A stretch of DNA of 11,775 nucleotides from an uncultured Nitrososphaera sp. (lineage in GTDB: Archaea; Thermoproteota; Nitrososphaeria; Nitrososphaerales; Nitrososphaeraceae): contig NZ_CAMLDP010000061.1 of NCBI RefSeq assembly GCF_946478925.1, forward strand, positions 1-11,775. The letters run 5' to 3'. The notes beneath the pieces are model-generated. The model worked only from the letters and a program-made list of their open reading frames with translations, did no database searches and had not been told where the DNA came from. The position numbers were made by a program, and so were the translations under genes. Position 1 is the first letter of the stretch. Each line of letters opens with the position of its first letter. Of this stretch, positions 113 through 11,775 are shown piece after piece.

Positions 113-131
113 ACAGATCTTTCAGATCTGT
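113..131. repeat. Perfect inverted repeat (8-bp arms, 3-bp loop)
   Basis: The arms ACAGATCT (113-120) and AGATCTGT (124-131) are exact reverse complements around TTC. The right arm runs directly into the TGCA-type palindrome at 129-142. It could be a second protein-binding site in the same control region or a short hairpin. No T-run follows it, so a terminator is less likely. Confidence 0.6.
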
Positions 132-142
132 AATGCAATGCA
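129..142. promoter_or_regulatory. TGCA palindrome, copy 1 (degenerate)
   Basis: The sequence is TGTAATGCAATGCA, 12 of 14 identical to the form TGCAGTGCAATGCA. A TATA-like GATAAAT follows at 152-158. A GTG lies at 186, 43 bp after the motif, the same spacing seen at the intact genes. The gene behind it (186-339) is broken. Confidence 0.55.
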
Positions 143-185
143 GTCCTGAAAGATAAATCTCGCACGTATTAAATTAATGATCACC

Positions 186-339
186 GTGAACATCCGAAAT
201 TCATGCACCTTGGGATTGACTAGTGGAAGCCGGAGCAGGTATCCATCTGTACGGAGGCGGATTCTCGGTAGATGAAATTGCTGATCAGATGGATGTAGGA
301 GTGAAGATAGTAGTAAAAGTAATATCTTTTCTTCCTTGA
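186..339 (+). pseudogene. Broken small helix-turn-helix gene
   Basis: From 250 to 324 one frame reads LYGGGFSVDEIADQMDVGV and then a hydrophobic tail ending in TGA at 337-339. This aligns without gaps to the MYEAGLSIKEISEQLDI stretch of the intact 54-residue helix-turn-helix protein at 9696. In that frame a TGA at 217-219 blocks the upstream part, leaving only a GTG at 223 that would give 38 residues. The GTG at 186, which has the conserved spacing to the TGCA palindrome and a TATA-like box, is in another frame, so one frameshift separates promoter-proximal start and helix-turn-helix core. I read it as a decayed paralogue of the 9696 gene. A functional 38-residue peptide starting at 223 cannot be excluded. 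Confidence 0.4.
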
Positions 340-624
340 ACCGTTCAACCTCTGATAGGTAAATATGGTAATCTGGTTGAAATTCATGGTAGCGACCACG
401 TTTGCGATTAATACTCTCCGATGAATGCCATTATTTCGATATCTATGCCGATTGGATTGCACTTAATCATACCTTTCTTCACCTTTAGGACGCCGCCATG
501 ATTTGCTTCCAGAACTTATTTTAAGAACTTTTCATGTGATGCACTTGCAGATCTAATTGGGCATATCAAAAGGACTAAAACATACAAGTCATAGCAAAGA
601 CTCTGTAGGTAACGGCAGCGACAC
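340..624. other. Non-coding stretch before the VIT1 gene
   Basis: No convincing ORF was found on either strand. The minus-strand reading from 462 down to 220 is low-complexity Tyr/Arg-rich sequence antisense to the broken helix-turn-helix gene and resembles nothing. The stretch contains a direct repeat of AGAACTT near 511-530. A possible A-rich promoter box (AAACATACAA, about 577-586) precedes the VIT1 start. No TGCA palindrome is present at the usual spacing from 625. Confidence 0.4.
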
Positions 625-1311
625 ATGAAATGGACACTTGAGGATTTTGTCTATGGCGCAACAGACGGCGCTGTCACTACCTTTGCCGTAGTTGCTGGTG
701 TGGTGGGTGCATCGCTTTCACCTGCCATAGTGCTCATTCTCGGATTTGCCAATCTCTTCGCAGATGGGTTTTCCATGGCAGTAGGAAACTATCTTGCAAC
801 AAAGTCCAAAAAGGAGGCCATTGAACGAGCACGTCACCACGAAGAGTGGGAGATTGACCACCTTGCTGATCAGGAAAAGCAGGAAATCCGCGACATTTAT
901 GCAAAAAAGGGTTTCAAGGATGAACTGCTAGAAGAGATCGTACGCATAATTACGTCTAGGCGAAAGGTGTGGCTTGACACAATGATGAAAGAAGAGCTCG
1001 GACTAATCGAGGATCAAAAAAGACCAATCGATACAGCAATCACAACATTTACTGCCTTCAATGCGATAGGCTTCATACCGCTCTTGCCGTTTGTCATCAT
1101 ATATGCAACGGGTGCCATAGCAGTATCCCAAGATGCGTTCGTATTTTCCAGCATCTCAACCGCGGTAGCATTTTTCATTATTGGCACAGTGAAAGGAAGA
1201 ATATTGGGCAAGCCACTTGGTCGCTCCGGCCTCGGTACCCTGGGCCTCGGAGGCATTGCTGCAGCAGTAGCCTTCATTGTGGGATACTTGCTGAATCGGC
1301 TTGTGTCATGA
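625..1311 (+). CDS. VIT1/CCC1 family Fe2+/Mn2+ transporter
   Basis: This 228-residue membrane protein belongs to the VIT1/CCC1 (DUF125) family, which moves Fe2+ or Mn2+ out of the cytosol. The N-terminal signature VYGATDGAVTTFAVVAGV (residues 9-26) opens the first membrane helix. The second helix region, ILGFANLFADGFSMAVGNYL (38-57), is also characteristic. Residues about 60-130 form the charged cytoplasmic helices that carry metal-binding carboxylates and histidines in the family (HHEEWEIDH, then MMKEELGL). Three further hydrophobic helices follow, giving the usual five. Length is normal. The ATG at 625 starts right at the conserved MKWTLEDFVYG, with no Shine-Dalgarno. Unlike most genes here it has no TGCA palindrome, so it is probably controlled separately. 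The direction of transport and metal preference cannot be read from sequence. Confidence 0.9.
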   Translation: MKWTLEDFVYGATDGAVTTFAVVAGVVGASLSPAIVLILGFANLFADGFSMAVGNYLATKSKKEAIERARHHEEWEIDHLADQEKQEIRDIYAKKGFKDELLEEIVRIITSRRKVWLDTMMKEELGLIEDQKRPIDTAITTFTAFNAIGFIPLLPFVIIYATGAIAVSQDAFVFSSISTAVAFFIIGTVKGRILGKPLGRSGLGTLGLGGIAAAVAFIVGYLLNRLVS

Positions 1312-1368
1312 AGGTGTCATATGGAGAGTATAGAGAGGCAATTTCTTAACAGAGAATGAAGAAGAATA

Positions 1369-1382
1369 TGCAGTGCATTGCA
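1369..1382. promoter_or_regulatory. TGCA palindrome, copy 2
   Basis: The sequence is TGCAGTGCATTGCA, identical to copy 6 at 4398. It lies about 50-57 bp ahead of the thermosome remnant at 1440-1556, as expected if that remnant once had this promoter. No intact gene now begins at the usual distance. Confidence 0.7.
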
Positions 1383-1439
1383 GGGCACACCCCGAGGAGA
1401 AATAGCAGCGAGTTCCTGATACCAATAAGAAATATCTAG

Positions 1440-1556
1440 CTATCCGCAGTAGAAAGCACGAAGGAAGGCATTCCAATTGTGTTACTTAAGGAAGGTTCTT
1501 CTGAAATTAAATGCAAGATTGCCGTGCGAAATAACATTGAGGCTGCCACGCTATAA
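1440..1556 (+). pseudogene. Thermosome (group II chaperonin) N-terminal remnant
   Basis: One frame reads AVESTKEGIPIVLLKEGSSE (1446-1505) and then KCKIAVRNNIEAATL before TAA at 1554-1556. This matches the start of archaeal thermosome subunits, which have a form like IPVLLLKEGSSETKGK followed by QRNNI-AAK. An in-frame TAG at 1437-1439 precedes it, there is no start codon, and the roughly 500 remaining residues of the chaperonin are absent. It is therefore a truncated dead copy. A TGCA palindrome lies upstream at 1369-1382, so the parent gene was probably part of the same regulon. Confidence in the family is good. How the rest was lost is not visible, as no mobile element is seen. Confidence 0.7.
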
Positions 1557-1590
1557 TAGAAAATCCCGCGAGTTTTTATAAGGAGTACAG

Positions 1591-1604
1591 TGCATGGCGG
1601 TGCA
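1591..1604. promoter_or_regulatory. TGCA palindrome, copy 3 (core diverged)
   Basis: The sequence is TGCATGGCGGTGCA. Both outer TGCA boxes are exact but the central TGCA is changed. It ends 42 bp before the ATG at 1647, with GATTAAG (1613-1619) as a TATA-like element between. This supports 1647 rather than 1590 as the start of the next gene. Confidence 0.5.
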
Positions 1605-1646
1605 TACCCGGTGATTAAGAACAAACCTGCGGTAAGAATTCTCGAC

Positions 1647-1970
1647 ATGGACACAACGTTATTGCGCTCTGACGAAAATAGAAAAAAGATGCTTGCAGAT
1701 TTGGAGAACAAATACGGCGTTGTTTTCAAGCCGATGGCCCAAGCGGTAGAGGATGCCGTCCTTGAACGATTACTAACTGAATTGGAAAGAAAGAACAAGG
1801 ATGTTGCCGAAACAAGAACAATAGAAAATCGCAGTGCCGCATATGACCGGTACGTGATGATGATAGCCGATTATCTATGCATACCGACGATCTTGACGGC
1901 GTTGTTCGCGTCTTACCCGTGGATGAAATTATGGTGGCCGTGGATTCAGGACTATCGCACAGACCATTGA
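1647..1970 (+). CDS. Unknown protein, helical with aromatic C-terminus
   Basis: I do not recognise this 107-residue protein. Residues 8-60 are rich in Lys, Glu, Asp and Leu and probably helical. Residues 70-100 are hydrophobic and end in a Trp-rich stretch (SYPWMKLWWPWIQ, 89-101) that could touch or cross the membrane. The frame stays open to GTG codons at 1611 and 1590, which would add 12 or 19 residues. ATG 1647 is chosen because it stands 42 bp from a TGCA palindrome with a TATA-like box between. Another TATA-like sequence at 1573-1582 (TTTTTATAAG) would instead favour the GTG at 1611. It could be lineage-specific, and translation is not proven. Confidence 0.5.
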   Translation: MDTTLLRSDENRKKMLADLENKYGVVFKPMAQAVEDAVLERLLTELERKNKDVAETRTIENRSAAYDRYVMMIADYLCIPTILTALFASYPWMKLWWPWIQDYRTDH

Positions 1971-2058
1971 TAAAATTCCACTTTGTGGTTGTCTATGATA
2001 ACTCGGCTGTTTAATGCCGGCCATTCGCTCTTTTCTAATTGTCGCAAAACATAATGAG

Positions 2059-2081
2059 TTATTCGAATATTATTCGAATAA
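2059..2081. repeat. Perfect 10-bp-arm palindrome
   Basis: The arms TTATTCGAAT (2059-2068) and ATTCGAATAA (2072-2081) are exact reverse complements around ATT. Each arm itself contains the palindrome ATTCGAAT, so the element can also be read as two direct TTCGAA boxes 11 bp apart, about one helical turn. It lies between the ends of two convergent genes (1970 and 2168), so it may be a bidirectional terminator or a protein-binding site. Confidence 0.65.
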
Positions 2082-2167
2082 GGTTCTCTCCACATAGTGT
2101 TGCCGCAGGATTGGATTTGTCGTCCAAATTGCAAGAGTTTGGGCTCTGCCCGGATTTTGCGGCTAGT

Positions 2168-2512
2168 CTAAAGCGCCCTATCTCCCTTTTCACCATTGCC
2201 CAAGTCATACGCTTCCGTCACTTCGTAGACAAATATCTTGCCTATTGCAGAAGCGCCCGTGCCAAAAGTCTGGAGAACGTCTTTTACGATCTCTTTGCTC
2301 ATGGCATCAGATGCTATCACTTGGACCTTGGTGCGGAACCCGAATTCCGGCACATACGTCATGACCCCTCTCCCTACTGTCACAGGAGTCTGTCTTGCAC
2401 GCCCTCTCCCCTTAATATCGTAAAACGACATCCCTCCGACCTGATGCTTGTGCAGCAGTTCATTAAGCTGGGGCAAGTGCTCTTGCGGAATAATTATGTC
2501 AAGCTTTTTCAT
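2168..2512 (-). CDS. glnK: Nitrogen regulatory protein P-II (GlnK-like)
   Basis: This 114-residue protein has the P-II fold. P-II trimers sense ATP/ADP and 2-oxoglutarate and bind partners, classically the ammonium channel AmtB, through the T-loop. The start MKKLDIIIP is typical. Residues 34-56 are the T-loop, opening with KGRGRARQTPVTVGRG. GTGASAIGKIFVYEV (84-98) carries the nucleotide-binding B-loop with its GKIFV strand. NGEKGDRAL (106-114) is a short C-loop. The tyrosine that is uridylylated in enterobacterial P-II is absent from the T-loop, as in many archaeal P-II proteins. A longer reading to 2563 is rejected because ATG 2512 gives the family start and has GTTTATC 26 bp upstream. The gene is not next to an amtB here. 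It diverges from a CBS gene around a shared TGCA palindrome. Confidence 0.88.
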   Translation of the reverse strand: MKKLDIIIPQEHLPQLNELLHKHQVGGMSFYDIKGRGRARQTPVTVGRGVMTYVPEFGFRTKVQVIASDAMSKEIVKDVLQTFGTGASAIGKIFVYEVTEAYDLGNGEKGDRAL

Positions 2513-2548
2513 GAATGTTATTTTTCTACATGCGAATGATAAACTAGT

Positions 2549-2562
2549 TGCACTGCTCTGCA
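2549..2562. promoter_or_regulatory. TGCA palindrome, copy 4, between divergent genes
   Basis: The sequence is TGCACTGCTCTGCA. Both outer TGCA boxes are exact and 12 of 14 bases match the reverse form TGCATTGCACTGCA. It is 36 bp from the P-II ATG on the minus strand and 40 bp from the CBS ATG on the plus strand. TATA-like boxes lie on both sides: 2538-2544 for minus and TTAAGAA at 2573-2579 for plus. Confidence 0.65.
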
Positions 2563-2602
2563 AACATACTCGTTAAGAAGAAGCTATTCTAATACTTGAG
2601 AT

Positions 2603-3040
2603 ATGAGTGCAGTTAGCGAAATAATGTGTGCAAAAGTCATAACTGTCGACGGCAACTCTGAACCATTAGTTCTTCAGATTGTTGATATGATGGTCAAGAA
2701 CAAAGTGGGCGCCGTCATAATTCTTGAAAATGGAAAGCCGTCGGGCATTATTACCGAGAGGGATATCCTCAAGAAAGTCTCCGTTCATAACAAAAAACCG
2801 GAGGATATTGCTGCCAAGAACATCATGTCATCGCCTCTGATAACCGTAAAGGCTTATGATTCCATAGATACTGCAGCCCAAGCCATGACTAAGAACAAAA
2901 TAAAAAGACTGCCAGTCTTGGAGGACGACGGCTCTATTGTAGGGATGATATCTTCGACAGACATTGCCAAAAAGCTGGCCAAGATACTGGCCGATGATTA
3001 CAACAGATACCGCTCCCTTAGGGCGGCTCTTGAATTGTAA
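2603..3040 (+). CDS. CBS-pair (Bateman module) protein
   Basis: This 145-residue protein consists only of two CBS domains, about residues 7-62 and 71-130. The first holds GKPSGIITERDILKK (44-58) and the second SIVGMISSTDIAKK (111-124), the standard strand-turn-helix endings of CBS repeats. Such paired domains bind adenosine nucleotides (AMP, ATP, or S-adenosylmethionine in known cases) and usually modulate a partner. No catalytic domain is fused, so it is a free-standing sensor with an unknown partner. ATG 2603 is 40 bp from the shared palindrome. A TGCAGTTAGC just inside the gene is not a full motif. The divergent pairing with P-II suggests that nitrogen or energy status is being sensed, but this is inference. 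Confidence 0.88.
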   Translation: MSAVSEIMCAKVITVDGNSEPLVLQIVDMMVKNKVGAVIILENGKPSGIITERDILKKVSVHNKKPEDIAAKNIMSSPLITVKAYDSIDTAAQAMTKNKIKRLPVLEDDGSIVGMISSTDIAKKLAKILADDYNRYRSLRAALEL

Positions 3041-3051
3041 ATAACAATAGT

Positions 3052-3207
3052 TCAATACCTGTCCATGGTTGCGCCCTTGTGGCAGGCTTGGCATGCTCCG
3101 CACCACTCGCACACATGTGGCGTCTCGATGTTGCACTTGACGCACCTTGTTTCTGGATTGTGGACAGGAGTCTCGTGGTAGTTATGCGGTTGGCGCATGC
3201 GTGTCAT
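3052..3207 (-). CDS. Small cysteine-rich protein coupled to Hsp20
   Basis: This 51-residue ORF begins MTRMRQPHNYHE and has six cysteines: RCVKCN (22, 25), then CEWCGACQACHKG (33, 36, 39, 42). The spacing CxxC-x7-CxxCxxCxxC suggests two zinc knuckles or possibly an iron-sulfur site. Its ATG (3207-3205) overlaps the TGA of the Hsp20 gene as ATGA, so it is almost certainly co-transcribed and translationally coupled with hsp20. It ends 11 bp from the stop of the convergent CBS gene. The same CxxCxxCxxC run occurs in the 101-residue protein at 4051-4356. A role as a redox- or zinc-responsive partner of the stress operon is a guess. Homology cannot be checked here. Confidence 0.75.
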   Translation of the reverse strand: MTRMRQPHNYHETPVHNPETRCVKCNIETPHVCEWCGACQACHKGATMDRY

Positions 3208-3656
3208 TTGACTGGCACCTTCATCGCTTGTCGGGACGCACCTTCTTCCGCCTTTGGGAGTCTGACAGTCAATACACCATTGTTCATGTCTGCTGAAACC
3301 TTGGATGGTTCAATTTCTTCAGGAACAGGTATCCTGCGGTAGAAAGATCTGGCAGACCTTTCGCTGTAAAGGTAGCCTCCGCGCTTTTCCTCAGACTTGC
3401 CAGATATCTCGACTGTGTTGCCTGTCGCCTTGACTTCAATCTTGTCCTTATCTATTCCCGGCACCTCGACATGGATCTGGTACCTGTCACCCTTATCTGC
3501 CCGGTCACAGAGCGGAATCCGCATATTTCCGAGATTCAGCCCCGGCCAGGCGCTCATCATGGCAGCGATTTCTCTCCTAAATCCGTCAAACATGTCATCC
3601 ATCTCACTTCTTTTTGCAAGTATGTTTCTCTTGGCAAGTTTGCCAGATTTTGTCAT
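3204..3656 (-). CDS. Small heat shock protein Hsp20/alpha-crystallin
   Basis: This 150-residue small heat shock protein is an ATP-independent holdase. The N-terminal arm, about 45 residues, contains EMDDMFDGFRREI. The alpha-crystallin domain runs from about 50 to 145, with YQIHVEVPGIDKDKIEVKA, then VEISGKSEEKRG, an SFYRRIPVPEEI strand, and the signature NNGVLTVRLPK. The C-terminus is short (MKVPVK), with no clear IxI motif. Longer starts exist (ATG 3665, TTG 3671). ATG 3656 is preferred because the TATA-like TTTCAAATA (3688-3680) and the TGCA palindrome (3697) then stand 24 and 40 bp upstream, like the neighbours. The small cysteine-rich gene follows in an ATGA overlap. Family assignment is firm and the start is less so. 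Confidence 0.9.
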   Translation of the reverse strand: MTKSGKLAKRNILAKRSEMDDMFDGFRREIAAMMSAWPGLNLGNMRIPLCDRADKGDRYQIHVEVPGIDKDKIEVKATGNTVEISGKSEEKRGGYLYSERSARSFYRRIPVPEEIEPSKVSADMNNGVLTVRLPKAEEGASRQAMKVPVK

Positions 3657-3696
3657 ATGCGTCATCTTCAATCAGTTGGTATTTGAAACCCGGGTA

Positions 3697-3710
3697 CGCA
3701 GTGCATTGCA
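3697..3710. promoter_or_regulatory. TGCA palindrome, copy 5, between divergent genes
   Basis: The sequence is CGCAGTGCATTGCA, one base from copies 2 and 6. It lies 40 bp from the preferred Hsp20 start (minus) and 45 bp from ATG 3756 (plus). TATA-like boxes are at 3688-3680 (minus) and TAAATA at 3727-3732 (plus). Confidence 0.75.
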
Positions 3711-3755
3711 ATGTATACTTGTTCTGTAAATACGCGCAGAACATAACATCGTACA

Positions 3756-3875
3756 ATGAGCAGGCTATCGAAGCCAAAAATGAGTGATGGGGCATTCGTG
3801 CTCATAGCCGTTGTATGATGCCTGGCCGCTTTTGCCATCCTTCTTGCAGCGGTAAGCACCGCCGCCGTTAGATAG
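3756..3875 (+). pseudogene. Tiny membrane-protein ORF with in-frame TGA
   Basis: ATG 3756 opens MSRLSKPKMSDGAFVLIAVV and then meets TGA (3816-3818). Reading on in the same frame gives CLAAFAILLAAVSTAAVR and TAG at 3873-3875. With any residue at the TGA, the two halves form one smooth transmembrane helix of about 25 residues after a basic N-terminus, so the ORF was very likely a single-span membrane protein of about 39 residues. The promoter layout is intact: TGCA palindrome 45 bp upstream and TAAATA 23 bp upstream. The simplest reading is a TGG-to-TGA or similar nonsense mutation. Alternatives are readthrough or a sequencing error. A 20-residue product is also possible. Confidence 0.5.
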
Positions 3876-3976
3876 GTGTTCAGATTCCTGCAAGAAAAGA
3901 CCCGAGACATCATAGCGTTTAGAAATGTTGACGGTCTAGTAAAGATCGTATGCATGAAAGGGATTACAGGCGAGAA

Positions 3977-4000
3977 CCCGCCTCCGCTCATGAGGGCGGG
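3977..4000 (+). terminator. GC-rich hairpin, possible terminator
   Basis: CCCGCC (3977-3982) pairs with GGCGGG (3995-4000) across a 12-base loop that contains the palindrome CTCATGAG. CGATTTT follows. It lies downstream of the tiny membrane ORF and just beyond the end of the minus-strand zinc-ribbon gene. A terminator for one of them or a structured RNA are both possible. The T-run is short. Confidence 0.35.
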
Positions 4001-4050: not shown

Positions 4051-4356
4051 TCAGCGAAGCGGAAGTTTTCTTACAAAGCGGAGCGTGATTCCTCGTTTTT
4101 CATCCCTTTCAAGTATGCACATTTCATCAACTGCCATCGGGATCATTGAAGTCCGCATTTGACATATCGGGCAAGTTAACTGTATGCCTCTTTCATTGAT
4201 GCAGGTTGCACACCACTTGCAACTATCGCAAATTTCAAGCACAATGTCAGGAAAGGTTTCGCCGGTGATTTTTTCTTGCCGTGTATTCAGGTCATCATAA
4301 GGCAAGACCTGGATTTCAGGCGAGTCCTTCTCCCTCTGCTCTCTTTTACGGGGCAT
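4051..4356 (-). CDS. Zinc-ribbon-like cysteine-rich protein
   Basis: This 101-residue protein has no family I can name. Residues 1-30 are charged and probably disordered. The middle carries ICDSCKWCATCI (Cys 43, 46, 49, 52), then TCPICQ (Cys 62, 65), with Cys 80 further on. The last two pairs could make one zinc ribbon and the first two another. The CxxCxxCxxC run is shared with the 51-residue protein downstream of Hsp20. ATG 4356 is 41 bp from the TGCA palindrome, with TTAATTA (4387-4381) 25 bp upstream, so a leaderless transcript is likely. It diverges from the UspA gene around one palindrome. The role may be a zinc-dependent nucleic-acid or protein-binding factor, but this is not established. 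Confidence 0.7.
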   Translation of the reverse strand: MPRKREQREKDSPEIQVLPYDDLNTRQEKITGETFPDIVLEICDSCKWCATCINERGIQLTCPICQMRTSMIPMAVDEMCILERDEKRGITLRFVRKLPLR

Positions 4357-4397
4357 ATGTATACCAGTCTCAACTTGTCGTAATTAAGCTTCAAGAA

Positions 4398-4411
4398 TGC
4401 AGTGCATTGCA
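4398..4411. promoter_or_regulatory. TGCA palindrome, copy 6, between divergent genes
   Basis: The sequence is TGCAGTGCATTGCA. It is 41 bp from the zinc-ribbon ATG (minus) and 57 bp from the UspA ATG (plus). The longer plus-side gap is filled by a GT-rich repeat. TATATA stands at 4442-4447. Confidence 0.8.
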
Positions 4412-4420
4412 GTAAAGCCA

Positions 4421-4446
4421 TGTTGTGTGTGTATGTGTGTGTATAT
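4421..4446. repeat. GT dinucleotide repeat in the UspA promoter
   Basis: An imperfect run of TG/GT units broken by TA lies between palindrome copy 6 and the TATA-like box. It makes the palindrome-to-start distance 57 bp instead of the 36-46 bp seen elsewhere, as if the repeat had expanded inside the promoter. Confidence 0.6.
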
Positions 4447-4468
4447 ACTCCCTCGTGAAATTACAACC

Positions 4469-4921
4469 ATGGTTTCGAGGATTCTTGTACCGCATGATGG
4501 GACTGTAATGTCCGACAGAGCACTGGCCAAGGCGACGGAGTTTGCCAAGGCGCTCAGAGCAGAGATTGTCATTGTACATATTGTAGACAGCAGGTTCGTG
4601 CCGCCAAGCGCCACGCTTGGATTCATAAGCGACAAGACGTCGCTCGAGGGAGCCAAGACGGAGCTTATCCGCATCCTAAAGTCCGGCTCGGAGCAGATGC
4701 TCAAGCAAAAGATGGAAAAGGTAAAGGCAGAGGGGATAGGCGTCGATTTTATCCTAGGGGTCGGTTCTCCCGCTGACGAGATAGTCAAGATTGCCCGCGA
4801 TACAAATTCAGACCTGATAATTATGGGAAGCAGGCAGCTTCATAGCGGAATAGGTGCACTGGGCAGCGTCGCAAGGAAGGTATCAGAGACCGCAGACCGG
4901 CCAGTTATGATAATACCCTGA
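4469..4921 (+). CDS. Universal stress protein (UspA family)
   Basis: This 150-residue UspA-domain protein starts MVSRILVPHDGTVMSDRAL, the usual first strand with the Asp that contacts nucleotide in ATP-binding members. It ends with SDLIIMGSRQ, ALGSVARKVSE and RPVMIIP. The family ATP motif is G-x2-G-x9-G-S. Here the second Gly is Gln (GSRQ) and the following loop is one residue short, so nucleotide binding may be altered or lost. The frame is open back to 4397, inside the palindrome, but ATG 4469 is the family start and lies 22 bp after TATATA. It converges with the SnoaL-like gene, with 6 bp between stops. It probably responds to stress together with the divergent zinc-ribbon gene. Confidence 0.88.
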   Translation: MVSRILVPHDGTVMSDRALAKATEFAKALRAEIVIVHIVDSRFVPPSATLGFISDKTSLEGAKTELIRILKSGSEQMLKQKMEKVKAEGIGVDFILGVGSPADEIVKIARDTNSDLIIMGSRQLHSGIGALGSVARKVSETADRPVMIIP

Positions 4922-4927
4922 TTGATT

Positions 4928-5320
4928 CTATCTTACGAACTTGATGTGAAGGGTCTTTATCTTCCACCCTCTCTGTTCGTCCGGTTCAAGCCCGAATGTA
5001 AATCTGGCCTTCGTCTTGTCACCTTTCTCGAAAGTGACAAGGGCGGTCAACCGGTCGTCGGGCTGACCGGGTTCTGCTTCCTTTGATATCTTGATCTTGC
5101 GGCGCATGTCGCTGTTTGCCATCAAGGCCACCTTGAGAAATGGCTCGATTGACGAGCGACCATGCAACACCTGGGACGTGCTAAAAGGCTCATAGATTAT
5201 CGCGTCGTCATCAAAGAGGTCAAGAAGGCCTTCTAAGTCTCGGTCCGATATTAGCCTGAAATATCTGTATACAATGTCCTCGCGGCTCTCGGCCCTTTTG
5301 ACCTTGCTTTTACGCATCAT
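4928..5320 (-). CDS. SnoaL-like / NTF2-fold protein
   Basis: This 130-residue protein has an NTF2-like cone fold of the SnoaL type. The N-terminal helix has EDIVYRYFRLISDRDLEGLL, followed by LFDDDAIIYEPF and LHGRSSIEPFLK, the usual second and third elements. Beta strands follow (LTALVTFEKGDK, ARFTFGLEPDE), then a final GWKIKTLHIKFVR. Members are small-molecule isomerases, hydrolases or binding proteins, and the ligand cannot be predicted. ATG 5320 and 5317 are adjacent. ATACTAA (5348-5342) is 22-25 bp upstream and a TGCA palindrome stands at 5376. A weak AGGTGA (5335-5330) could act as a ribosome site. It has its own promoter although the ribbon-helix-helix gene lies just upstream on the same strand. 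Confidence 0.8.
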   Translation of the reverse strand: MMRKSKVKRAESREDIVYRYFRLISDRDLEGLLDLFDDDAIIYEPFSTSQVLHGRSSIEPFLKVALMANSDMRRKIKISKEAEPGQPDDRLTALVTFEKGDKTKARFTFGLEPDEQRGWKIKTLHIKFVR

Positions 5321-5375
5321 GACACGTGTTCACCTTTGCCATTAGTATGATCTGTTGATAGATAACCTATCGGAT

Positions 5376-5389
5376 TGCAGTGCAATGCA
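5376..5389. promoter_or_regulatory. TGCA palindrome, copy 7
   Basis: The sequence is TGCAGTGCAATGCA. It is 55 bp from ATG 5320 of the SnoaL-like gene and only 13 bp past the stop of the ribbon-helix-helix gene. No plus-strand gene begins on the other side, so it serves one direction. Confidence 0.75.
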
Positions 5390-5402
5390 GTTTATTCAGT
5401 AC

Positions 5403-6014
5403 TTACCTCAGCACTACCTCGGCAACGGTGGTGTTTGGCGTGACGTGAATATCGGCCTTTACCTTTGCAAGGTTTTGAAATATCAAGTTGAGGAGCTCTT
5501 TGGTAAAGAGCGACCAGTTCTCGCCAAGCTCGTGTTGCACTACAAAGACGTGCTTGCTTGACCCCTCTATTCGGTGGTCGGCCTTTATTCCAGAGACCTT
5601 CATGTACTCTTCCAGGACAGAGAGGACCACCCAGAGGTTGTAGTGTTTTTTCATGAAAAGCACAGAGTCCTTCATTAGATTAAAGGCGATCTGCGCCGCC
5701 TCTTTCACTATCTGGTCCCTATAGATCTCAACCTCTTTTATACCGCCAGCCTTGGCCGAAGAGATTGCCTTGTCGATGAGCGTCGAGAGCATCAATTTGG
5801 GTACAGGCATCATGCCAATCTTGCTCTCATATCTGTCCCACTCTGCATAGCGCTTGAGCACTTGGTTGACAAGGACATTGAGTGAAATTTCGCGCGTGTC
5901 TGCCTCGCCCTGTAGTTCATCTATTACCGACGAGTCAATTCTGAATGTGACGCTTCGAGTTTTTCTCGACTGTGATGAGGAAGATGCTTCTATGCCTTCA
6001 GAGTCTCCAGACAT
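5403..6014 (-). CDS. Ribbon-helix-helix protein with large C-terminal domain
   Basis: This 203-residue protein has a Ser-rich leader (residues 1-20) and then a CopG/Arc-type ribbon-helix-helix domain: SVTFRIDSSVIDELQGEADT (22-41), ISLNVLVNQVLKRYAEWDRY (43-62). The first strand would enter the DNA major groove as a dimer. Residues about 70-203 form an unknown alpha/beta domain with an amphipathic helix (KEAAQIAFNLMKDSVLFMKK) and a conserved-looking HELGENWSLFTKELL, which may bind a ligand or mediate oligomers. A TATA-like CTTTTTAAG lies near 6054-6046 and the ATG is at 6014. No TGCA palindrome is at the usual place. It is a plausible DNA-binding regulator for this cluster, not proven. Confidence 0.78.
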   Translation of the reverse strand: MSGDSEGIEASSSSQSRKTRSVTFRIDSSVIDELQGEADTREISLNVLVNQVLKRYAEWDRYESKIGMMPVPKLMLSTLIDKAISSAKAGGIKEVEIYRDQIVKEAAQIAFNLMKDSVLFMKKHYNLWVVLSVLEEYMKVSGIKADHRIEGSSKHVFVVQHELGENWSLFTKELLNLIFQNLAKVKADIHVTPNTTVAEVVLR

Positions 6015-6060: not shown

Positions 6061-6502
6061 TCAACGCGCTATGAGAACCGGGCAACTAGAGAGCTCCGCG
6101 ACCTTGCGTGCAACACTACCGAGCGCTTTGAGCTTGGACATGCTTTGAGTCCTTCGCTCCCCATAAGTATCAAGTCAATCTTCTGTTTTCTTGCAGTCTG
6201 TCTCCAATATCTAAGCCGCAGGGTCGCCAACAGCATGCACAAGCTTTGCATTCACGTCGTGTGTTTTTGCAGCTATCAACAAGTGATTCTAACGATCTTA
6301 CAACGGACCCGCGAGGCGATTCTGTATCAAATTCGGCGGCCTCGTTTATTGCCTCATTGTACGTGTAAACGAGCCAAGGGAGCCCCGTGACGGTCAGAAA
6401 CGTAATTTTGGCGCCGGATAACTCGGCAATATATTCCGCGTACTTGGCAGCCCTTACAGAGAACTATGAGCCGTCCTATGAGACAAGTATGCTGCGATAC
6501 AT
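6061..6502 (-). pseudogene. UspA pseudogene, last gene of CBS-C2H2 operon
   Basis: The full length of a UspA protein can be traced across frames. ATG 6502 gives MYRSILVS, a TAG, DGS, a second TAG (6466-6464), then FSVRAAKYAEYIAELSGAK and ITFLTV in the same frame. After a shift come VNAKLVHAVGDPAA and a third TAG. A further shift gives IDLILMGSEGLK. The last shift gives ALGSVARKVAELSSCPVLIA, ending in TGA at 6063-6061. Three nonsense codons and about three frameshifts make it clearly dead. It begins 4 bp after the stop of the CBS-C2H2 gene, mirroring the intact CBS-UspA pair at 7163-8090. The C-terminus is close to that of the UspA at 4469. Confidence 0.85.
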
Positions 6503-6506
6503 GCGC

Positions 6507-7064
6507 TCAGATCTGCCTCAGGTCACCTTCCAACAATCCGCTTCCAATGTGAAGTCTGTCCACATGCTTGGAGAGATCCTGCTTGCTCTCAAATCCTGAA
6601 CCACAATACGGGCAAGTTACTCCGGTAAGTATTGAGCTTGTCTCGATCTGTCCAGTCTCAACACTCTTGCTTGGGCTGTTGCCAATGACCGATAACAACG
6701 TTACAAACCCGACTATTTTCCCACTTCTTCTGACTGGAAGCCTCCTTATTCCCGCTTTTCTCATTAGGAGGGTCGCCTCCATTGCAGTTGCCGATTCATC
6801 TATAGAAATTAAAGGCTTGCTCATGACCTCTTTCAAGGTTATCTTGAAGGGCCCCTTGCTTTCAGCCACCACCTTGTACAGGATGTCCCTCTCGGTGATA
6901 ATTCCGATCAGCTCTTTTGTCGTGTCGTTTCGAGATACAAACACGCACGTAGAATCCTTCCTCTTCATAGCTTTTGCTGCCTGTATCACTGTGGCTGACT
7001 CCTCCATCACCAACATATCGGGATTTGCCAGTTCCCCGACCTTCCTCCCAAGATTGGCTTGCAT
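6507..7064 (-). CDS. CBS-pair protein with C-terminal C2H2 zinc finger
   Basis: This 185-residue protein begins with two CBS domains (about 12-68 and 77-128), marked by IGIITERDILYKV (53-65) and GKIVGFVTLLSVIG (115-128). A linker of about 20 residues leads to a classical zinc finger, CPYCGSGFESKQDLSKHVDR followed by LH (151-172), with spacing C-x2-C-x12-H-x4-H. A nucleotide-sensing Bateman module joined to a possible DNA- or RNA-binding finger suggests ligand-controlled binding. The ORF is open to 7118, but MQANLGRKVGEL at 7064 is preferred: ATATATT (7093-7087) is 23 bp upstream and the palindrome 39 bp upstream. It heads an operon with the UspA pseudogene and diverges from the CBS-UspA-permease operon. 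Confidence 0.87.
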   Translation of the reverse strand: MQANLGRKVGELANPDMLVMEESATVIQAAKAMKRKDSTCVFVSRNDTTKELIGIITERDILYKVVAESKGPFKITLKEVMSKPLISIDESATAMEATLLMRKAGIRRLPVRRSGKIVGFVTLLSVIGNSPSKSVETGQIETSSILTGVTCPYCGSGFESKQDLSKHVDRLHIGSGLLEGDLRQI

Positions 7065-7103
7065 GAAATGATTGTTGCAAAGGAACAATATATCATGGAT
7101 GTA

Positions 7104-7117
7104 TGCAGTGCAATGCA
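7104..7117. promoter_or_regulatory. TGCA palindrome, copy 8, between two CBS operons
   Basis: The sequence is TGCAGTGCAATGCA. It is centred between ATG 7064 (39 bp, minus) and GTG 7163 (45 bp, plus), with TATA-like boxes at 7093-7087 and 7133-7140. This is the clearest example of one element shared by two divergent leaderless promoters. Confidence 0.8.
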
Positions 7118-7162
7118 CAAGATTCCTAGACGTAAAATATTGCCCATAGCCATGTTCTTTCT

Positions 7163-7666
7163 GTGAGTATAGAGTCCATTTCCGTATCGAATTTCATGAC
7201 CAAGGTGGTCAGGACTGCAGGAGAGGATCAGACCATAAGAACGGTAGCAGAGATGATGGACAAACATGACATTGGAAGTGTCGTGATCATAGACAGCAAC
7301 GGTTCGCCCTCGGGCATAATCACAGAACGCGACATAGTCAGGCTCGTAGGTTCTCCAAAAACATCCTTTGCAGCATCTGCAAAAAGCGTGATGAAAAAGC
7401 CCATAATAACGGCTGATGCCATAACGTCGCTAAAGGACGCCCTCCAGACTATGCAGTCCAAAAACATCCGCAGATTGCCTATTGTTGAAAAGGGCAAGAT
7501 GGTTGGCATAATCACGGACAAGGACATCTTCCGGGCAATTCTGAAAAGCCAGACGCTCGTCTCGAGCGTAGTAAGTGACAGCGTGCTTATCGAGTATAGG
7601 CCGATCTACGAGCGGCTTTCCGAATTCATGCTGAGCGAGATATATCAACCACAAGGCGGCAGATGA
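7163..7666 (+). CDS. CBS-pair protein, first gene of CBS-UspA-permease operon
   Basis: This 167-residue protein has two CBS domains (about 8-66 and 74-130): SPSGIITERDIVR (48-60) and KMVGIITDKDIFRAI (112-126). A tail of about 35 residues follows (YRPIYERLSEFMLSEI), probably helical and perhaps for dimer or partner contact. GTG 7163 is the likely start, as it lies 22 bp after TAAAATAT and 45 bp from the palindrome. The ATG at 7196 would cut into the first CBS domain. The UspA gene starts 1 bp after its stop. The operon context suggests that this domain pair reports nucleotide or energy state to the UspA and the permease, but no direct evidence of that exists. Confidence 0.87.
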   Translation: MSIESISVSNFMTKVVRTAGEDQTIRTVAEMMDKHDIGSVVIIDSNGSPSGIITERDIVRLVGSPKTSFAASAKSVMKKPIITADAITSLKDALQTMQSKNIRRLPIVEKGKMVGIITDKDIFRAILKSQTLVSSVVSDSVLIEYRPIYERLSEFMLSEIYQPQGGR

Positions 7667-7667
7667 A

Positions 7668-8090
7668 TTGTATTCAAGGGTTCTCGTTGCTATGGACGGC
7701 TCAGACTGTGCGAAAAGGGCATTAGAGTCAGCCATGGACATAGTCAAAGCTTCCAACGGCTCCCTTACAATCATGCATGTTCTTCAGGTTCCAAGTACGC
7801 CTGGATTTGGAAAAAAGCTAACTACAGAGATTCTTCTAGTCTATAGAAGAGATGCGAGGGCTTTTCTCGAGGAACAGCAACGCGAAGCCGAATCGCACGG
7901 AATAAAGGCCGAGACCCTATTAGTAAAGGGCAGTCCTGCAAAAGCGATAATGAGCGCAGCAAAGGCAATGAATGCAGACTTAGTAGTCATAGGAAGCAGA
8001 GGTCTTGGAGGGGTCAAGGAACTCCTGCTTGGAAGCGTTTCAAATGCAATAGTGCATGGCTCCAAGATTCCCGTCCTGATCACCAAATGA
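7668..8090 (+). CDS. Universal stress protein (UspA family), ATP-binding type
   Basis: This 140-residue UspA protein has the first strand MYSRVLVAMDGSDCAKRAL with the nucleotide-contacting Asp, GSPAKAIMSAAKAMNADLVV in the middle, and an intact ATP motif: GSRGLGGVKELLLGSVSNAI, i.e. G-x2-G-x9-G-S. It ends KIPVLITK. The start is TTG 7668, one base after the TGA of the CBS gene, and no in-frame ATG precedes the first strand. Translation therefore probably depends on termination of the CBS gene. Its own TGA overlaps the permease ATG (ATGA). Compared with the UspA at 4469 it keeps all glycines, so the two probably differ in nucleotide handling. Confidence 0.9.
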   Translation: MYSRVLVAMDGSDCAKRALESAMDIVKASNGSLTIMHVLQVPSTPGFGKKLTTEILLVYRRDARAFLEEQQREAESHGIKAETLLVKGSPAKAIMSAAKAMNADLVVIGSRGLGGVKELLLGSVSNAIVHGSKIPVLITK

Positions 8091-9421
8091 CAGGGATTGA
8101 ATTGAGAAAGTCTGGCGACTTGCGCCTGAAGCGGAGCATAAGCCTTTTTCAGGCAATCATGTACGGCTCCGGCTTGATCCTTGGGGCCGGAATATACGTT
8201 CTGATAGGAGATGTCGCGGGCATCGCGGGCAACGCAATGTGGATTTCATTTGCCTTGGCCGCGGCAATTGCCACTTTTACAGGGCTCAGCTATGCTGAGC
8301 TGACTTCGGTCTTTCCAAAAAGTGCAGCGGAATATCTGTTTGTCAAGAATGCTTTTGGAAACAAATCATTAGCGTTTGTCTCTGGATGGCTCATTGTATT
8401 CGTCGCAGTGGTGTCCGCAGCGGCTGTGGCCATCGGCTTTTCCAGTTATCTTGCTGTTTTCTTTCCAGACCTTGGACAGTCGATTTCCGCAATTTTGCTT
8501 GTCGCAGTACTTTCCGGCGTGAATTTTATTGGCATTCGTGAGTCGATGTGGATGAATACAGCATTCACGCTCATAGAAATTGCAGGTCTTGCGATCATCA
8601 TATGTACAGGCTTGCTCTTTTCCTCTGCTACTGAAACGAACTTTTACGAGATGCCACCATCGGTGAACTCCTCTGCACTAGCGCTAAGTGCCATAGCTGG
8701 AGCGGCGGGCCTTGCGTTCTTTGCTTACTTTGGCTTTGAAAACCTGGCAAATATATCAGAGGAAACCAAGAACGCTCGCAGAACAATTCCGCTTGCACTT
8801 ATTGCATCTATAGCAATCACGACAGGGATTTACATACTGGTCGCAGTGGCAACTGCTGTGCTTGTCGGATGGGAGGCTCTTTCGTCGACAAATGCGCCTC
8901 TTGCGCTCGCAGCTGAAAAGGCATTTGGCAGGTCGGGCATTATCATTCTATCGTCAATCGCACTTTTTGCCACGAGCAACACAGTGCTAATGATGCTTGT
9001 CTCCGGATCCAGGATACTGTTTGGAATGGCAAATGACAAGGCAATCCCGTCGGCTCTGGCGTCAGTTCATCCGAGGACCAAGACGCCGCTAGGCGCCATA
9101 ATCGTGATCATGGCGCTTGTTATAGGCGTTGTAATAGCATCTTCAGGCAGGTTAGACGTCATTGCGAAGGTTGCGGTCTTTGGAATATTCATGGTTTATG
9201 TCATTGTTAATTTCGCATTAATATGGCTCCGGTACAAAAGACCCCGTATTGAAAGGCCCTTTCGCTCCCCTTTGAGCATAGGGAGGTTTCCCATTCTTGC
9301 AGGTCTTGGGCTATTAACCTCAGTCGCCATACTAACTCAGTTTGACATAGTAACTGTAGTAGCAGGGGCGGCAGCCGCCGCGTCAGGGTTGTTGGCGTAC
9401 CTAGTACTTAGAGGGAAGTAG
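8087..9421 (+). CDS. APC-superfamily amino acid/polyamine permease
   Basis: This 444-residue membrane protein of the amino acid-polyamine-organocation family has about 12 predicted helices. The substrate-site motif in helix 1 is present as GLILGAGIYVLIG (29-41). Near 211-235, FFAYFGFENLANISEETKNA followed by RRTIP matches the helix 6 unwound region and the loop after it that typify the family. Length is normal. Transport is usually secondary, driven by H+ or Na+, and the substrate cannot be told. The ATG overlaps the UspA stop (ATGA), so it is the third gene of a tight CBS-UspA-permease operon. UspA domains are fused to some APC carriers elsewhere, so a physical UspA-permease partnership is plausible here. 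Confidence 0.9.
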   Translation: MTGIELRKSGDLRLKRSISLFQAIMYGSGLILGAGIYVLIGDVAGIAGNAMWISFALAAAIATFTGLSYAELTSVFPKSAAEYLFVKNAFGNKSLAFVSGWLIVFVAVVSAAAVAIGFSSYLAVFFPDLGQSISAILLVAVLSGVNFIGIRESMWMNTAFTLIEIAGLAIIICTGLLFSSATETNFYEMPPSVNSSALALSAIAGAAGLAFFAYFGFENLANISEETKNARRTIPLALIASIAITTGIYILVAVATAVLVGWEALSSTNAPLALAAEKAFGRSGIIILSSIALFATSNTVLMMLVSGSRILFGMANDKAIPSALASVHPRTKTPLGAIIVIMALVIGVVIASSGRLDVIAKVAVFGIFMVYVIVNFALIWLRYKRPRIERPFRSPLSIGRFPILAGLGLLTSVAILTQFDIVTVVAGAAAAASGLLAYLVLRGK

Positions 9422-9460
9422 CGTTTCTTTTTGTTGTTGTTGCTGTTGTTGCTGCTACAG
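9422..9460 (+). terminator. T-rich TTG/CTG run after the permease operon
   Basis: Directly after the permease TAG the plus strand reads GTTTCTTTTTG and then a run of TTG with some CTG triplets up to about 9456. Archaeal termination mainly needs U-rich tracts, so TTTCTTTTT is a likely terminator. The triplet run is a microsatellite-like repeat. Confidence 0.45.
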
Positions 9461-9545
9461 CATCGCCACCATAACTCGAAAAACTTCAAAGTAATTTCTT
9501 GCAAGACATGAAGGGTAGCAGTAGCTATTTTTTGTCACACAAGTG

Positions 9546-9562
9546 GTGATATAGGATATCAC
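9546..9562. repeat. Perfect inverted repeat (7-bp arms, AGG centre)
   Basis: GTGATAT (9546-9552) and ATATCAC (9556-9562) are exact reverse complements. The element lies in the 274-bp gap between the permease and the helix-turn-helix gene. It may be an operator. Nothing else recognisable is in the gap besides the T-rich run, TTTTTG/CAAAAA arms at 9600-9616 and the TGCA palindrome. Confidence 0.5.
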
Positions 9563-9635
9563 AACCACAACCGCCGTCCGGCCGACTCGCGCGTAGTATT
9601 TTTTGCACGTCAAAAATGGCGACTCTATTTCATCA

Positions 9636-9649
9636 TGCACTGCCATGCA
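9636..9649. promoter_or_regulatory. TGCA palindrome, copy 9
   Basis: The sequence is TGCACTGCCATGCA, with both outer TGCA boxes exact. TTTATT (9664-9669) follows, and ATG 9696 is 46 bp away with no room for a leader. This puts the small helix-turn-helix gene under the same element as the stress genes. Confidence 0.75.
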
Positions 9650-9695
9650 CTGGAGTCCCGTACTTTATTCCTTTGATTTATCCGTAACATATTGT

Positions 9696-9860
9696 ATGTG
9701 CAGCGAAAAAGTCATCAACGTTGATCCGGCACTCTTGAAGCGACTTGCAAGAATGTACGAGGCCGGGCTGTCGATAAAAGAGATTTCAGAACAGCTTGAT
9801 ATTAGCGCAATATCTGCAAGGAGAATTCTGGAATTACTGGGGTACGCCGTCGCCGACTAG
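9696..9860 (+). CDS. 54-residue helix-turn-helix protein
   Basis: The protein is almost entirely one homeodomain-like or resolvase-type helix-turn-helix. After MCSEKVINVDPALLKRLARM (first helix), GLSIKEISEQLDISAISARR (24-43) holds the turn, with the pattern G-S-x2-EI-x2-L-x-I-S, then ILELLGYAVAD. A longer reading to 9603 exists, but ATG 9696 is supported by the palindrome and TATA-like box and by the absence of any homology-like sequence before it. The gene is 11 bp from the four-CBS gene that follows, so the two form an operon. As a tiny dimerising DNA binder under the TGCA element it is a candidate regulator of the cluster and of itself. A broken relative lies at 186-339. Confidence 0.75.
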   Translation: MCSEKVINVDPALLKRLARMYEAGLSIKEISEQLDISAISARRILELLGYAVAD

Positions 9861-9871
9861 GGGATTCTAAA

Positions 9872-10672
9872 ATGCAAGATATTACCATAAGGAAGGCGGC
9901 GCCTCGGATTTTTATGCGGCCGTTGCTGTATGTGAGTCCTTCTGATTCAATGCTTCAAGTCGCTACCTTTCTTGCAACAGGGCCCCAGATCTACGTGGAT
10001 GGCTTGGTTGTCCTAGACGAAAAAAAGAAACTTGCAGGCAGAATAGGCGGGTATGCCCTTGCAAACCACATCTTACAAACACGGGAAAAGTGGACGGATA
10101 GCAAGGCTTCCGCAATTTTGGAGCCTCTTGAGCACCCGCTGCAGGATAACGATCTTCTCTCAAAGGCGCTATGGATATTCAAAGATACTAGGTTTGCATT
10201 CATGCCGGTGGCATCATCAAATAACGAAGTAACTGCCTCGCTATCTCTCCGTGACTTGATAATTTATGCCACGAGACTAAAGGCCTTGATACAAGACCTG
10301 ACATCTCCTCTGCTGACTATTGATAATGATGCGAGCGTGCTGGATGCACTTGAATTCATGTTGGAAAAGGGCTTGCGGAATCTTGTCTTCTTAAGGGAGG
10401 ATGTCCCTTATGTCATCAATGATAGAAAGGTCCTCGAGTACATACTCCGACCTCTGACGAGAAAGATTGTTTCGCGCTCAGGCTTCGAAGTGCTTGCCAA
10501 TTCAAAGCTAACAGACCTTGATGCGACCAAGGGAATATGCGTGGATCCAAAGGGCTCTGCAGGTTCTGTTGCACATCTCTTTACCGACATTGGAACGTCG
10601 TGCCTTTTTGCAGGCAACAGGATACTGACTCCCTGGGACCTAGTAATGAAAGGTTCTGGGTTTATCAGTTAG
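9872..10672 (+). CDS. Four-CBS (double Bateman) protein
   Basis: This 266-residue protein can be read as four diverged CBS repeats: about 13-68 (PLLYVSPSDSMLQVATFLAT), 79-135 (HPLQDNDLLSKALWIF, SLRDLIIYA), 141-192 (SPLLTIDNDASVLDALEFML) and 210-262 (GNRILTPWDLVMKG). The usual G-x-(I/V)-T-x2-D endings are worn down (GRIGGYALANHIL, YVINDRKVLEYIL), so some sites may no longer bind nucleotide. No other domain is fused. The gene follows the helix-turn-helix gene by 11 bp, so the pair may act as a split regulator with a sensor part and a DNA-binding part. Its end overlaps the end of the convergent alcohol dehydrogenase gene by 8 bp. Recognition is by pattern and less certain than for the canonical CBS pairs. 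Confidence 0.75.
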   Translation: MQDITIRKAAPRIFMRPLLYVSPSDSMLQVATFLATGPQIYVDGLVVLDEKKKLAGRIGGYALANHILQTREKWTDSKASAILEPLEHPLQDNDLLSKALWIFKDTRFAFMPVASSNNEVTASLSLRDLIIYATRLKALIQDLTSPLLTIDNDASVLDALEFMLEKGLRNLVFLREDVPYVINDRKVLEYILRPLTRKIVSRSGFEVLANSKLTDLDATKGICVDPKGSAGSVAHLFTDIGTSCLFAGNRILTPWDLVMKGSGFIS

Positions 10673-11723
10673 GCGTTATTACGGCCCTTCCTGTTATCTG
10701 GCCATTTCTCAACAAGTCTATTGCATCGTTGACCTCTTCTAGCTGGAATGTTTGGAGCATGTGCTTTAACTTGCCTTGCTTTGCCAGCTCTATGACTTCC
10801 CGAAGTTCGTTGTAATTACCCCATAGCGAGCCGGTCACCTCATACTCGTTTAGCACAGTAGGCATCAACGGCAACTGCACTTTTGAGCCAAAAAGTCCCA
10901 CTATGGCAAGAGCACCGCCCTTTGCAAGAAGGTTAACTGACATTGAAGTAGTATTTTCTGCGCCTACACAGTCGATAATAATGTCGACACCCCTGCCTTG
11001 CGTTATTTCCATCACCTCTTTCCTAGTGCTCTCGGATAGCCGAATTGCATGCTCGGCACCAAGGTCTTTAGCAAACCTTAGCTTCTTGTCACTTCTGTCG
11101 ATTGCTATCGTCGTTGAATTTGGAGCAAGTAGCTTGGCATACTGAATACCATAGGATCCCAAGCCGCCAATACCCACTACTGCGATGGTTGTTCCAGGTA
11201 CAAGCAAATGGCGAAACTTCCTGATGGCGCGATACGGTGTCAAACCTGCATCTGTCAACGGCGCGATCTCTTCTGCCTTCAACTTTGTATCTTCCACTTT
11301 TATCAAGAACCTGTAGGAAGGAACCGCAATGTATTGCGAGAACCCGCCGTCGTATTGCGATAACCCTGGCCATTTGGCAGCAGGACACATCTGCTCGTCG
11401 CCCCTTTTGCATGCAAGGCAGGAACCACAGCCCCACCCGCCAAACACAGCCACTAGATCCCCTCTTTCACAAATGCCCTTGGGCACGGAATCGCCTATCT
11501 CTTCTACTGTGCCCGCAACTTCGTGCCCCGGTGTCTTTGGCAAAGCCAACGGTATTGCATCTCTCCACTCACCGTTTATCAGATGGAGGTCGCTGTGGCA
11601 CAGTCCGGCGCCACCCACCTTTACGACTACACCTTCGCCTCGTGGCCTTGGCATCTGAACAGATTCTACGACCAGAGGTTTTTGATATTCATGGATCCTT
11701 GCAGAAAGAATGTGTTCAGCCAT
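10665..11723 (-). CDS. Zinc-dependent alcohol dehydrogenase (MDR family)
   Basis: This 352-residue medium-chain dehydrogenase oxidises alcohols or reduces aldehydes with NAD(P). Catalytic zinc ligands are Cys 42 (GLCHSDLH) and His 67 with Glu 68 (PGHEVAGTVEEIG). Four cysteines for the structural zinc are in CGSCLACKRGDEQMC (99, 102, 105, 113). The Rossmann motif is VVGIGGLGSYGIQYAK, followed by an Asp (IAIDRSDKK) at the end of the second strand, which favours NAD over NADP. Length is normal. MAEHILSARI at 11723 is preferred to the longer start at 11753 because AAATAT (11750-11745) stands 22 bp upstream and the palindrome 39 bp upstream. The natural substrate is unknown. Its place in the regulon suggests aldehyde or redox stress. 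Confidence 0.92.
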   Translation of the reverse strand: MAEHILSARIHEYQKPLVVESVQMPRPRGEGVVVKVGGAGLCHSDLHLINGEWRDAIPLALPKTPGHEVAGTVEEIGDSVPKGICERGDLVAVFGGWGCGSCLACKRGDEQMCPAAKWPGLSQYDGGFSQYIAVPSYRFLIKVEDTKLKAEEIAPLTDAGLTPYRAIRKFRHLLVPGTTIAVVGIGGLGSYGIQYAKLLAPNSTTIAIDRSDKKLRFAKDLGAEHAIRLSESTRKEVMEITQGRGVDIIIDCVGAENTTSMSVNLLAKGGALAIVGLFGSKVQLPLMPTVLNEYEVTGSLWGNYNELREVIELAKQGKLKHMLQTFQLEEVNDAIDLLRNGQITGRAVITPN

Positions 11724-11762
11724 AGGAAAATGCGAAACAGCATCATATTTCAAGAAATAGGT

Positions 11763-11775
11763 TGCAGTGCAATGC
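11763..11775. promoter_or_regulatory. TGCA palindrome, copy 10 (cut by window end)
   Basis: TGCAGTGCAATGC is visible, and the final A would lie just outside the window. It is 39 bp from ATG 11723 of the alcohol dehydrogenase. A divergent plus-strand gene starting about 45 bp further on is predicted by analogy with the other copies. Confidence 0.7.

Follow-up and report, generated by a model that had tools for sequence, protein, structure and literature searches.

A four-box TGCA operator and a candidate sensor-regulator of a stress regulon in ammonia-oxidizing archaea

Background

Ammonia-oxidizing archaea (AOA) are major nitrifiers of soils, and their gene regulation has hardly been mapped. 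The operators of the archaeal regulators NrpR, TrmB, MsvR and Phr are short inverted repeats near promoters, like the element described here, but they have other sequences and are bound by other protein families. Our element, a 25-bp dyad built of four TGCA boxes, was found in a stretch of 11,775 bp from an uncultured Nitrososphaera sp. (contig NZ_CAMLDP010000061.1 of the assembly GCF_946478925.1), hereafter the window. It keeps a narrow spacing to promoters and start codons, is conserved before orthologous operon heads and is concentrated in one gene island; that it serves as operator for a single stress regulon is, in our view, close to certain. The operator, its geometry, a list of targets and a candidate sensor-regulator were obtained together from sequence alone, and the operator unites many genes annotated as 'hypothetical' in one response.

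The closest described parallels are found among ribbon-helix-helix (RHH) proteins. MetJ is such a protein, but it is a repressor of bacterial promoters, its 8-bp boxes have other letters, and it lacks a sensor domain of the fold seen in the window protein discussed below. CopG, also an RHH protein, has an operator with TGCA boxes and no sensor domain. In gammaproteobacteria, one MetJ homodimer is reported to occupy each short palindromic metbox, with at least two boxes required for repression (PMC3228920), and CopG of the plasmid pMV158 is described as acting on a pseudosymmetric element that overlaps the bacterial -35 region (PMC3516476). The mode of binding that we propose follows the MetJ precedent, i.e. 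one dimer per short box and two or more boxes. As to gene content, integrated mobile elements of thaumarchaea are reported to carry a similar set, namely UspA, CBS, RHH, multicopper oxidase and hemerythrin genes (PMC6563490), but no operator is described in the available portion of that report, and no integrase match lies in the main islands of the six genomes searched. MetOD1, an output domain of archaeal response regulators from methanogens, is described as HNOB/V4R-like with a three-cysteine cluster (PMC5847659), whereas the window protein has no cysteine and bears an RHH-like N-terminus. Open papers in PMC (subscription journals not covered) yielded no description of an operator or regulon of this kind for AOA. 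One-component regulators acting on an operator are a familiar kind of system; what is new is the four-box TGCA array, the promoter geometry and the apparent combination of RHH and H-NOX-like domains.

A 25-bp dyad replaces a 14-bp palindrome

A first-pass annotation of the window had listed ten copies of a 14-bp palindrome, TGCA-N6-TGCA, starting at 129, 1369, 1591, 2549, 3697, 4398, 5376, 7104, 9636 and 11763. All ten positions check out on re-reading, and both outer boxes are exact in seven of them (1369, 1591, 2549, 4398, 5376, 7104 and 9636), as had been stated; the copies at 129 and 3697 have one mismatch each, and the copy at 11763 runs into the end of the window, with 13 of its 14 bases visible. 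The excess over chance likewise holds. Against the seven exact copies, 500 dinucleotide shuffles of the window gave a mean of 0.55 and a maximum of four, and TGCANTGCANTGCA occurs four times in the window versus a shuffled mean of 0.006. When one mismatch is allowed in TGCA-N6-TGCA, the window holds 19 matches (mean 8.9), a number reached by none of 200 shuffles.

The palindrome is, however, not the true unit. The letters flanking 135 oriented exact sites (overlapping ones counted apart) fit a larger symmetry, a 25-bp four-box dyad GAWTGCASTGCAWTGCASTGCAWTC whose centre is shifted by 2.5 bp and whose layout, symmetric about the middle W, is GAW-TGCA-S-TGCA-W-TGCA-S-TGCA-WTC. The logo of 92 gene-oriented promoters gives the same GAWTGCASTGCAWTGCASTGCAWTC, the inner two boxes being strong and both outer boxes weaker; repeated short self-complementary boxes under an overall dyad, as in the tandem-box operators of the MetJ/CopG kind, are thus visible in the logos. 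If distances to start codons are taken from the centre of the 14-mer, they split into groups near 46 and 52 bp, because the axis of the 25-mer is the true centre; taken from this axis they form a single peak at 48-51 bp, which comprises 86 of 188 site-gene pairs. With up to five mismatches the 25-mer occurs seven times in the window and in none of 60 shuffles, and with up to seven it was found 256 times in 662,300 bases of segments chosen around exact sites, as opposed to six times for a reversed control. A strict search at three mismatches yields few sites (seven, two and none in the genomes G029, G028 and G043, respectively), since the outer boxes are often decayed. Extended arrays with four or five exact TGCA boxes in a 5-bp period were seen at G068:C509:2444, G069:C219:3500 and G070:C58:4363.

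The suggestion that the motif marks nearly every promoter of the window is confirmed with qualifications: the ten copies are there, but three of them are weak and several genes have no site. The copy at 2549 lacks the central TGCA and differs from the 25-mer at nine positions, the one at 129 has no assignable gene behind it, and the one at 1369 precedes a thermosome remnant. A perfect 9-bp inverted repeat (ATCTTTCAG...CTGAAAGAT) encloses the copy at 129 (window positions 117-154). No site of their own is present at the genes for VIT1, a 51-aa cysteine protein, the RHH protein, UspB and an amino-acid permease, and at the CBS gene at 9872, several of these being later genes of operons.

Promoter geometry

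The position of the dyad relative to the promoter is equally regular. Of 179 promoters, 87 have their best TATA-like heptamer starting exactly at +20 relative to the axis, and 116 have it starting within 18-22. The edge of the dyad, at +12, thus abuts the inferred TFB-recognition element (BRE). TATA at +20 combined with a start codon near +49 is the spacing of a leaderless promoter. Where genes are divergent, a single site serves both, with the geometry kept on either side. Such rigid spacing to TATA might also suggest a core-promoter element read by an alternative transcription factor B (TFB) instead of a regulator's operator. We consider this very improbable, as the element has a dyad symmetry of 25 bp, is used simultaneously by both divergent genes and stops before the BRE position.

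The sites had been said to be intergenic or upstream of starts, and their scarcity inside genes is borne out beyond the window. Although conserved gene models make up 48% of the fetched bases, they contain only one of the 135 exact sites; 10 of the 135 fall within any open reading frame (ORF) model, and the same holds for 18 of 186 merged 25-mer sites. The segments used for these counts, as well as for the logos, the geometry and the conservation analysis, were chosen for holding or adjoining exact sites.

Conservation before orthologous genes

Orthologues were counted in 13 of 18 genomes, the window included (G024, G027, G068, G069 and G070 were left out), with a site accepted at up to seven mismatches. 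Gene models were based on ORFs plus homology, which leaves start codons imprecise, and under some labels Usp or CBS paralogues are pooled. In six gene families every orthologue (54 of 54) has a site upstream: Hsp20 (9/9), the cysteine-rich Cys101 (8/8), UspA (9/9), the CBS-zinc-finger protein CBSzf (12/12), CBSb (11/11) and the 54-aa helix-turn-helix (HTH) protein HTH54 (5/5). Conservation is lower for alcohol dehydrogenase (ADH, 6/8), SnoaL (7/13), P-II (4/7) and CBSa (2/9). Sites are mostly lacking before Cys51 (1/10), RHH (1/13), UspB (1/6), CBSc (1/8) and the permease (2/8), and none precedes VIT1 (0/8). Many of these last six are later genes of operons, and the sites track operon heads. 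Gene order varies among the genomes, and UspB and CBSc have their own sites in G001, as does the permease in G029 and G002. Of 537 gene models that carry no window label, a further 98 have a site upstream, a figure in which targets and chance are not separated. The corresponding stretch of N. gargensis (G029) adds genes for an intact thermosome, a multicopper oxidase and a hemerythrin, together with further CBS and Usp genes. Of the two outcomes named in the first-pass annotation as refuting the idea, namely the motif being equally frequent inside genes and a lack of conservation before orthologues, neither was seen in the genomes covered. Judged by these predicted products (Hsp20, Usp, CBS, thermosome, P-II and ADH), the label of a stress regulon proposed in the first-pass annotation appears to fit.

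Spread across genomes

Matches to the window's ADH in two Nitrososphaera metagenome-assembled genomes, at 67 and 66% identity, led to 70 genomes of the family. Whole-genome pattern counts, which are independent of the choice of segments, were made for these, N. gargensis among them, and for 250 genomes of the class Nitrososphaeria. The exact TGCANTGCANTGCA has 160 copies in 27 of the 70 family genomes, compared with four copies in three genomes for the reversed control. All 13 exact copies in N. gargensis lie at 1,579,134-1,607,744, i.e. within 28.6 kb of a genome of 2,833,868 bases; 18 more have one mismatch (control: one match), nine of them in or beside the island stretch and nine elsewhere. 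Clustering is also evident in G002 (7/7 on one contig), G043 (5/6 in 13.2 kb) and G028 (3/4 in 10.2 kb), and it is looser in G001 (6/16) and G042 (11/22 in one stretch or contig region). In G028 a second cluster of four sites (with 2, 4, 4 and 6 mismatches) lies far from the main island, at C1:2921711-2927215.

Concentration in one island might be taken as the mark of a structural or mobile-element repeat (a centromere-like cluster, a repetitive extragenic palindrome or miniature inverted-repeat transposable element, or a methylation site) that stands between genes by chance. Usp, CBS and RHH genes are reported as cargo of thaumarchaeal mobile elements (PMC6563490), and a Phage_integrase match lies some 5.4 kb away from an outlying exact site of G042 (C1:181134). 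Such a repeat would hardly be placed to the exact base pair relative to TATA and the start codon, nor would it track operon heads, and the conserved part is just about 25 bp long. Six genomes were searched for Phage_integrase (PF00589): five have matches, none inside the main islands, the nearest one in G029 being about 70 kb away. A mobile element was rejected on this ground, and a repeat of any of these kinds seems to us extremely improbable.

At the level of the class, TGCAWTGCASTGCAWNC has matches in 28 of the 250 genomes (control: 0 of 250). The family set accounts for eleven of these genomes, and the loci of the other 17 were examined. In seven of these 17 loci a site is centred 48-49 bp before a gene for a winged-helix protein of about 110 aa, with a CBS gene behind it in six of the seven; Usp or Hsp20 genes also occur at these loci. 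An eighth locus, L190, has the winged-helix gene with no site before it. Weaker sites (five to seven mismatches) stand 48-49 bp before the winged-helix gene in L013, L014, L024 (twice) and L032. An IclR/TrmB-like winged-helix protein of this size with its own operator is thus present in L180, L181, L184, L189, L191, L194 and L196 as well as in these four, and it is possible that in distant Nitrososphaeria it forms a second regulatory layer.

A candidate regulator

The protein that binds the operator is, we infer with a probability of roughly 0.6, the RHH protein encoded at 5403..6014 on the reverse strand. Its N-terminal part (residues about 18-57) appears to be RHH-like, and its C-terminal part (about 69-203) may share the fold of H-NOX, V4R and Bet3 domains; the N. 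gargensis protein is recorded as Ngar_c20420. Structure models place helices at 28-40/41 and 45-57/65 after a stretch (20-27) without assigned structure, as expected for a strand that would form only in the dimer; a second model from a wider alignment brought no improvement (predicted local distance difference test, pLDDT, 72.9). The polar strand motif RSxTxR is kept in 32 aligned sequences, with S21 and R25 invariant and T19, R20 and T23 conserved in at least 90%. The Pfam family CopG_antitoxin matches the window protein with an E-value of 0.0051 and distant homologues with 3.2e-4 and 2.1e-4, all below the cut-off. There is no match in NCBIfam, and a sequence search of PDB gave nothing meaningful for the protein alone or for its alignment. 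As for the C-terminal domain, the heme-propionate motif of H-NOX proteins is YxSxR, which occurs in 0 of 32 and 0 of 33 aligned sequences, and the three-cysteine cluster of V4R proteins is absent, the window protein having no cysteine and no aligned relative more than two.

The RHH protein and the site largely co-occur across genomes. Among 13 genomes without the site, picked by handle number, a homologue was found in one (G092), with no site near it, and the RHH protein, at 41-46% identity to that of the window, is encoded in the same locus as the site at four of the 17 distant loci. In 10 of 13 genomes its gene follows the site-bearing CBSzf gene on the same strand and in the same order, and the protein would therefore regulate itself. 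A possible variant of the operator at the RHH gene of low-GC genomes was looked for in aligned upstream sequences of 13 loci, which revealed no TGCA array. RHH-related proteins are greatly expanded in the 70 family genomes, with up to 19 matches per genome.

Another binder is conceivable, namely one of these many RHH paralogues encoded elsewhere, the CBS-zinc-finger protein, the winged-helix protein or the 54-aa HTH protein. G067 has sites but no close RHH orthologue, the CBS-zinc-finger gene has its site in all 12 genomes, and the winged-helix gene has one at the distant loci listed above. A single zinc finger would, however, hardly account for a 25-bp dyad of four boxes. HTH54 was rejected as the regulator, being present in just five of the 70 genomes, and so was the winged-helix protein as a shared one: a search of 12 family genomes with sites gave matches of only 25-38%, with none in G002, and the 28-31% seen in four site-free genomes is close to these values. 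We thus regard a different binder as rather unlikely.

Mode of action

If the RHH protein is indeed the regulator, one dimer would bind each self-complementary TGCA box; boxes one helical turn apart could be filled cooperatively on one face of the DNA, with the array being completed from the opposite face. The sensor-like C-terminal domain would perceive a signal and set the occupancy, and the bound array may contact the TATA-binding protein (TBP) and TFB just downstream and so activate transcription, the RHH gene itself being controlled along with its targets from the CBSzf promoter. The rigid placement of the dyad directly before BRE and TATA suggests recruitment of TBP and TFB, i.e. activation and not repression.

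Nevertheless, the bound protein may block access of TBP and TFB until stress releases the block. CopG is reported as a repressor (PMC3516476) and MetJ as giving repression (PMC3228920), and a dyad that ends at +12, against the inferred BRE, with TATA from +20, would be suitably placed. A TATA spacing fixed to one bp in about half of the promoters and a site wholly upstream of BRE look more like the work of an activator, and we therefore see repression as a real but lesser possibility. Binding, activation and the ligand are all putative. Taken together, they would make the RHH protein a one-component master regulator of AOA stress responses, with an H-NOX/V4R/Bet3-type sensor perhaps responding to nitric oxide or a lipid, whose dimers on the four-box array activate leaderless promoters in both directions and control chaperone, Usp, CBS, P-II and ADH genes, and which has been kept with its operator across Nitrososphaeria; this combined picture is tentative and, as a whole, rather doubtful.

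Operators and genes of the window

Among the genes of the window, four encode CBS proteins, one of which has a weak zinc finger, and two encode intact Usp; others encode VIT1, P-II, Hsp20, the SnoaL-like and RHH-like proteins, an amino-acid permease, the HTH protein of 54 aa and a zinc ADH. No structured RNA was matched in it by Rfam at the gathering threshold. The operator at 7101..7125 is common to the divergent genes of the CBS protein with a weak C2H2 zinc finger (6507..7064, -), which lies upstream of the RHH gene, and of a CBS protein (+), its centre being 49 and 50 bp from the respective starts. The latter gene heads a likely operon of CBS, Usp and amino-acid permease genes (7163..9421, +), and the same divergent pair with its site recurs in other genomes. 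A second operator (5373..5397, two mismatches) is positioned directly beyond the stop of the RHH gene and 68 bp from the modelled start of the SnoaL-like target (4928..5317, -). The one at 4395..4419 lies between the divergent targets Cys101 (4051..4356, -; 101 aa, no Pfam match), at 51 bp, and UspA (4469..4921, +), at 62 bp. The target Hsp20 (3204..3656, -) starts 50 bp from the operator at 3694..3718. The operator at 9633..9657 is found 51 bp before the HTH gene, the likely head of a target operon with a CBS gene (9696..10672, +).

Near the right end, 11760..11775 is probably the operator of the target ADH (10665..11723, -), cut by the window end; by arithmetic, 49 bp would separate its centre from the start codon at 11723. 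Another operator (1583..1607) precedes a gene ending at 1970, whose homologue in G043 also has a site upstream (328863, six mismatches). A decayed operator at 2541..2565 separates the target P-II (2168..2512, -), which has a site in four of seven genomes, from a CBS gene (+), to which it retains the expected spacing of 50 bp.

Other traces of decay were noted as well. Between the CBS-zinc-finger and RHH genes (6070-6499, -) lies a broken Usp gene, recovered by tblastn as two pieces in different frames, whose relative in G043 (334882-335337) is a single open frame. The operator at 1366..1390, apparently a fossil promoter, is intact and precedes the N-terminal remnant of a thermosome gene (1368-1553, +; 52% over 62 aa); in N. 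gargensis a full thermosome gene is located at the island end (1609526-1611235). Finally, a GT-rich repeat (4424-4448) is present between the UspA operator and TATA and sets them about 12 bp further apart than they are in the orthologue of G043; it may alter regulation or be a sign of decay.

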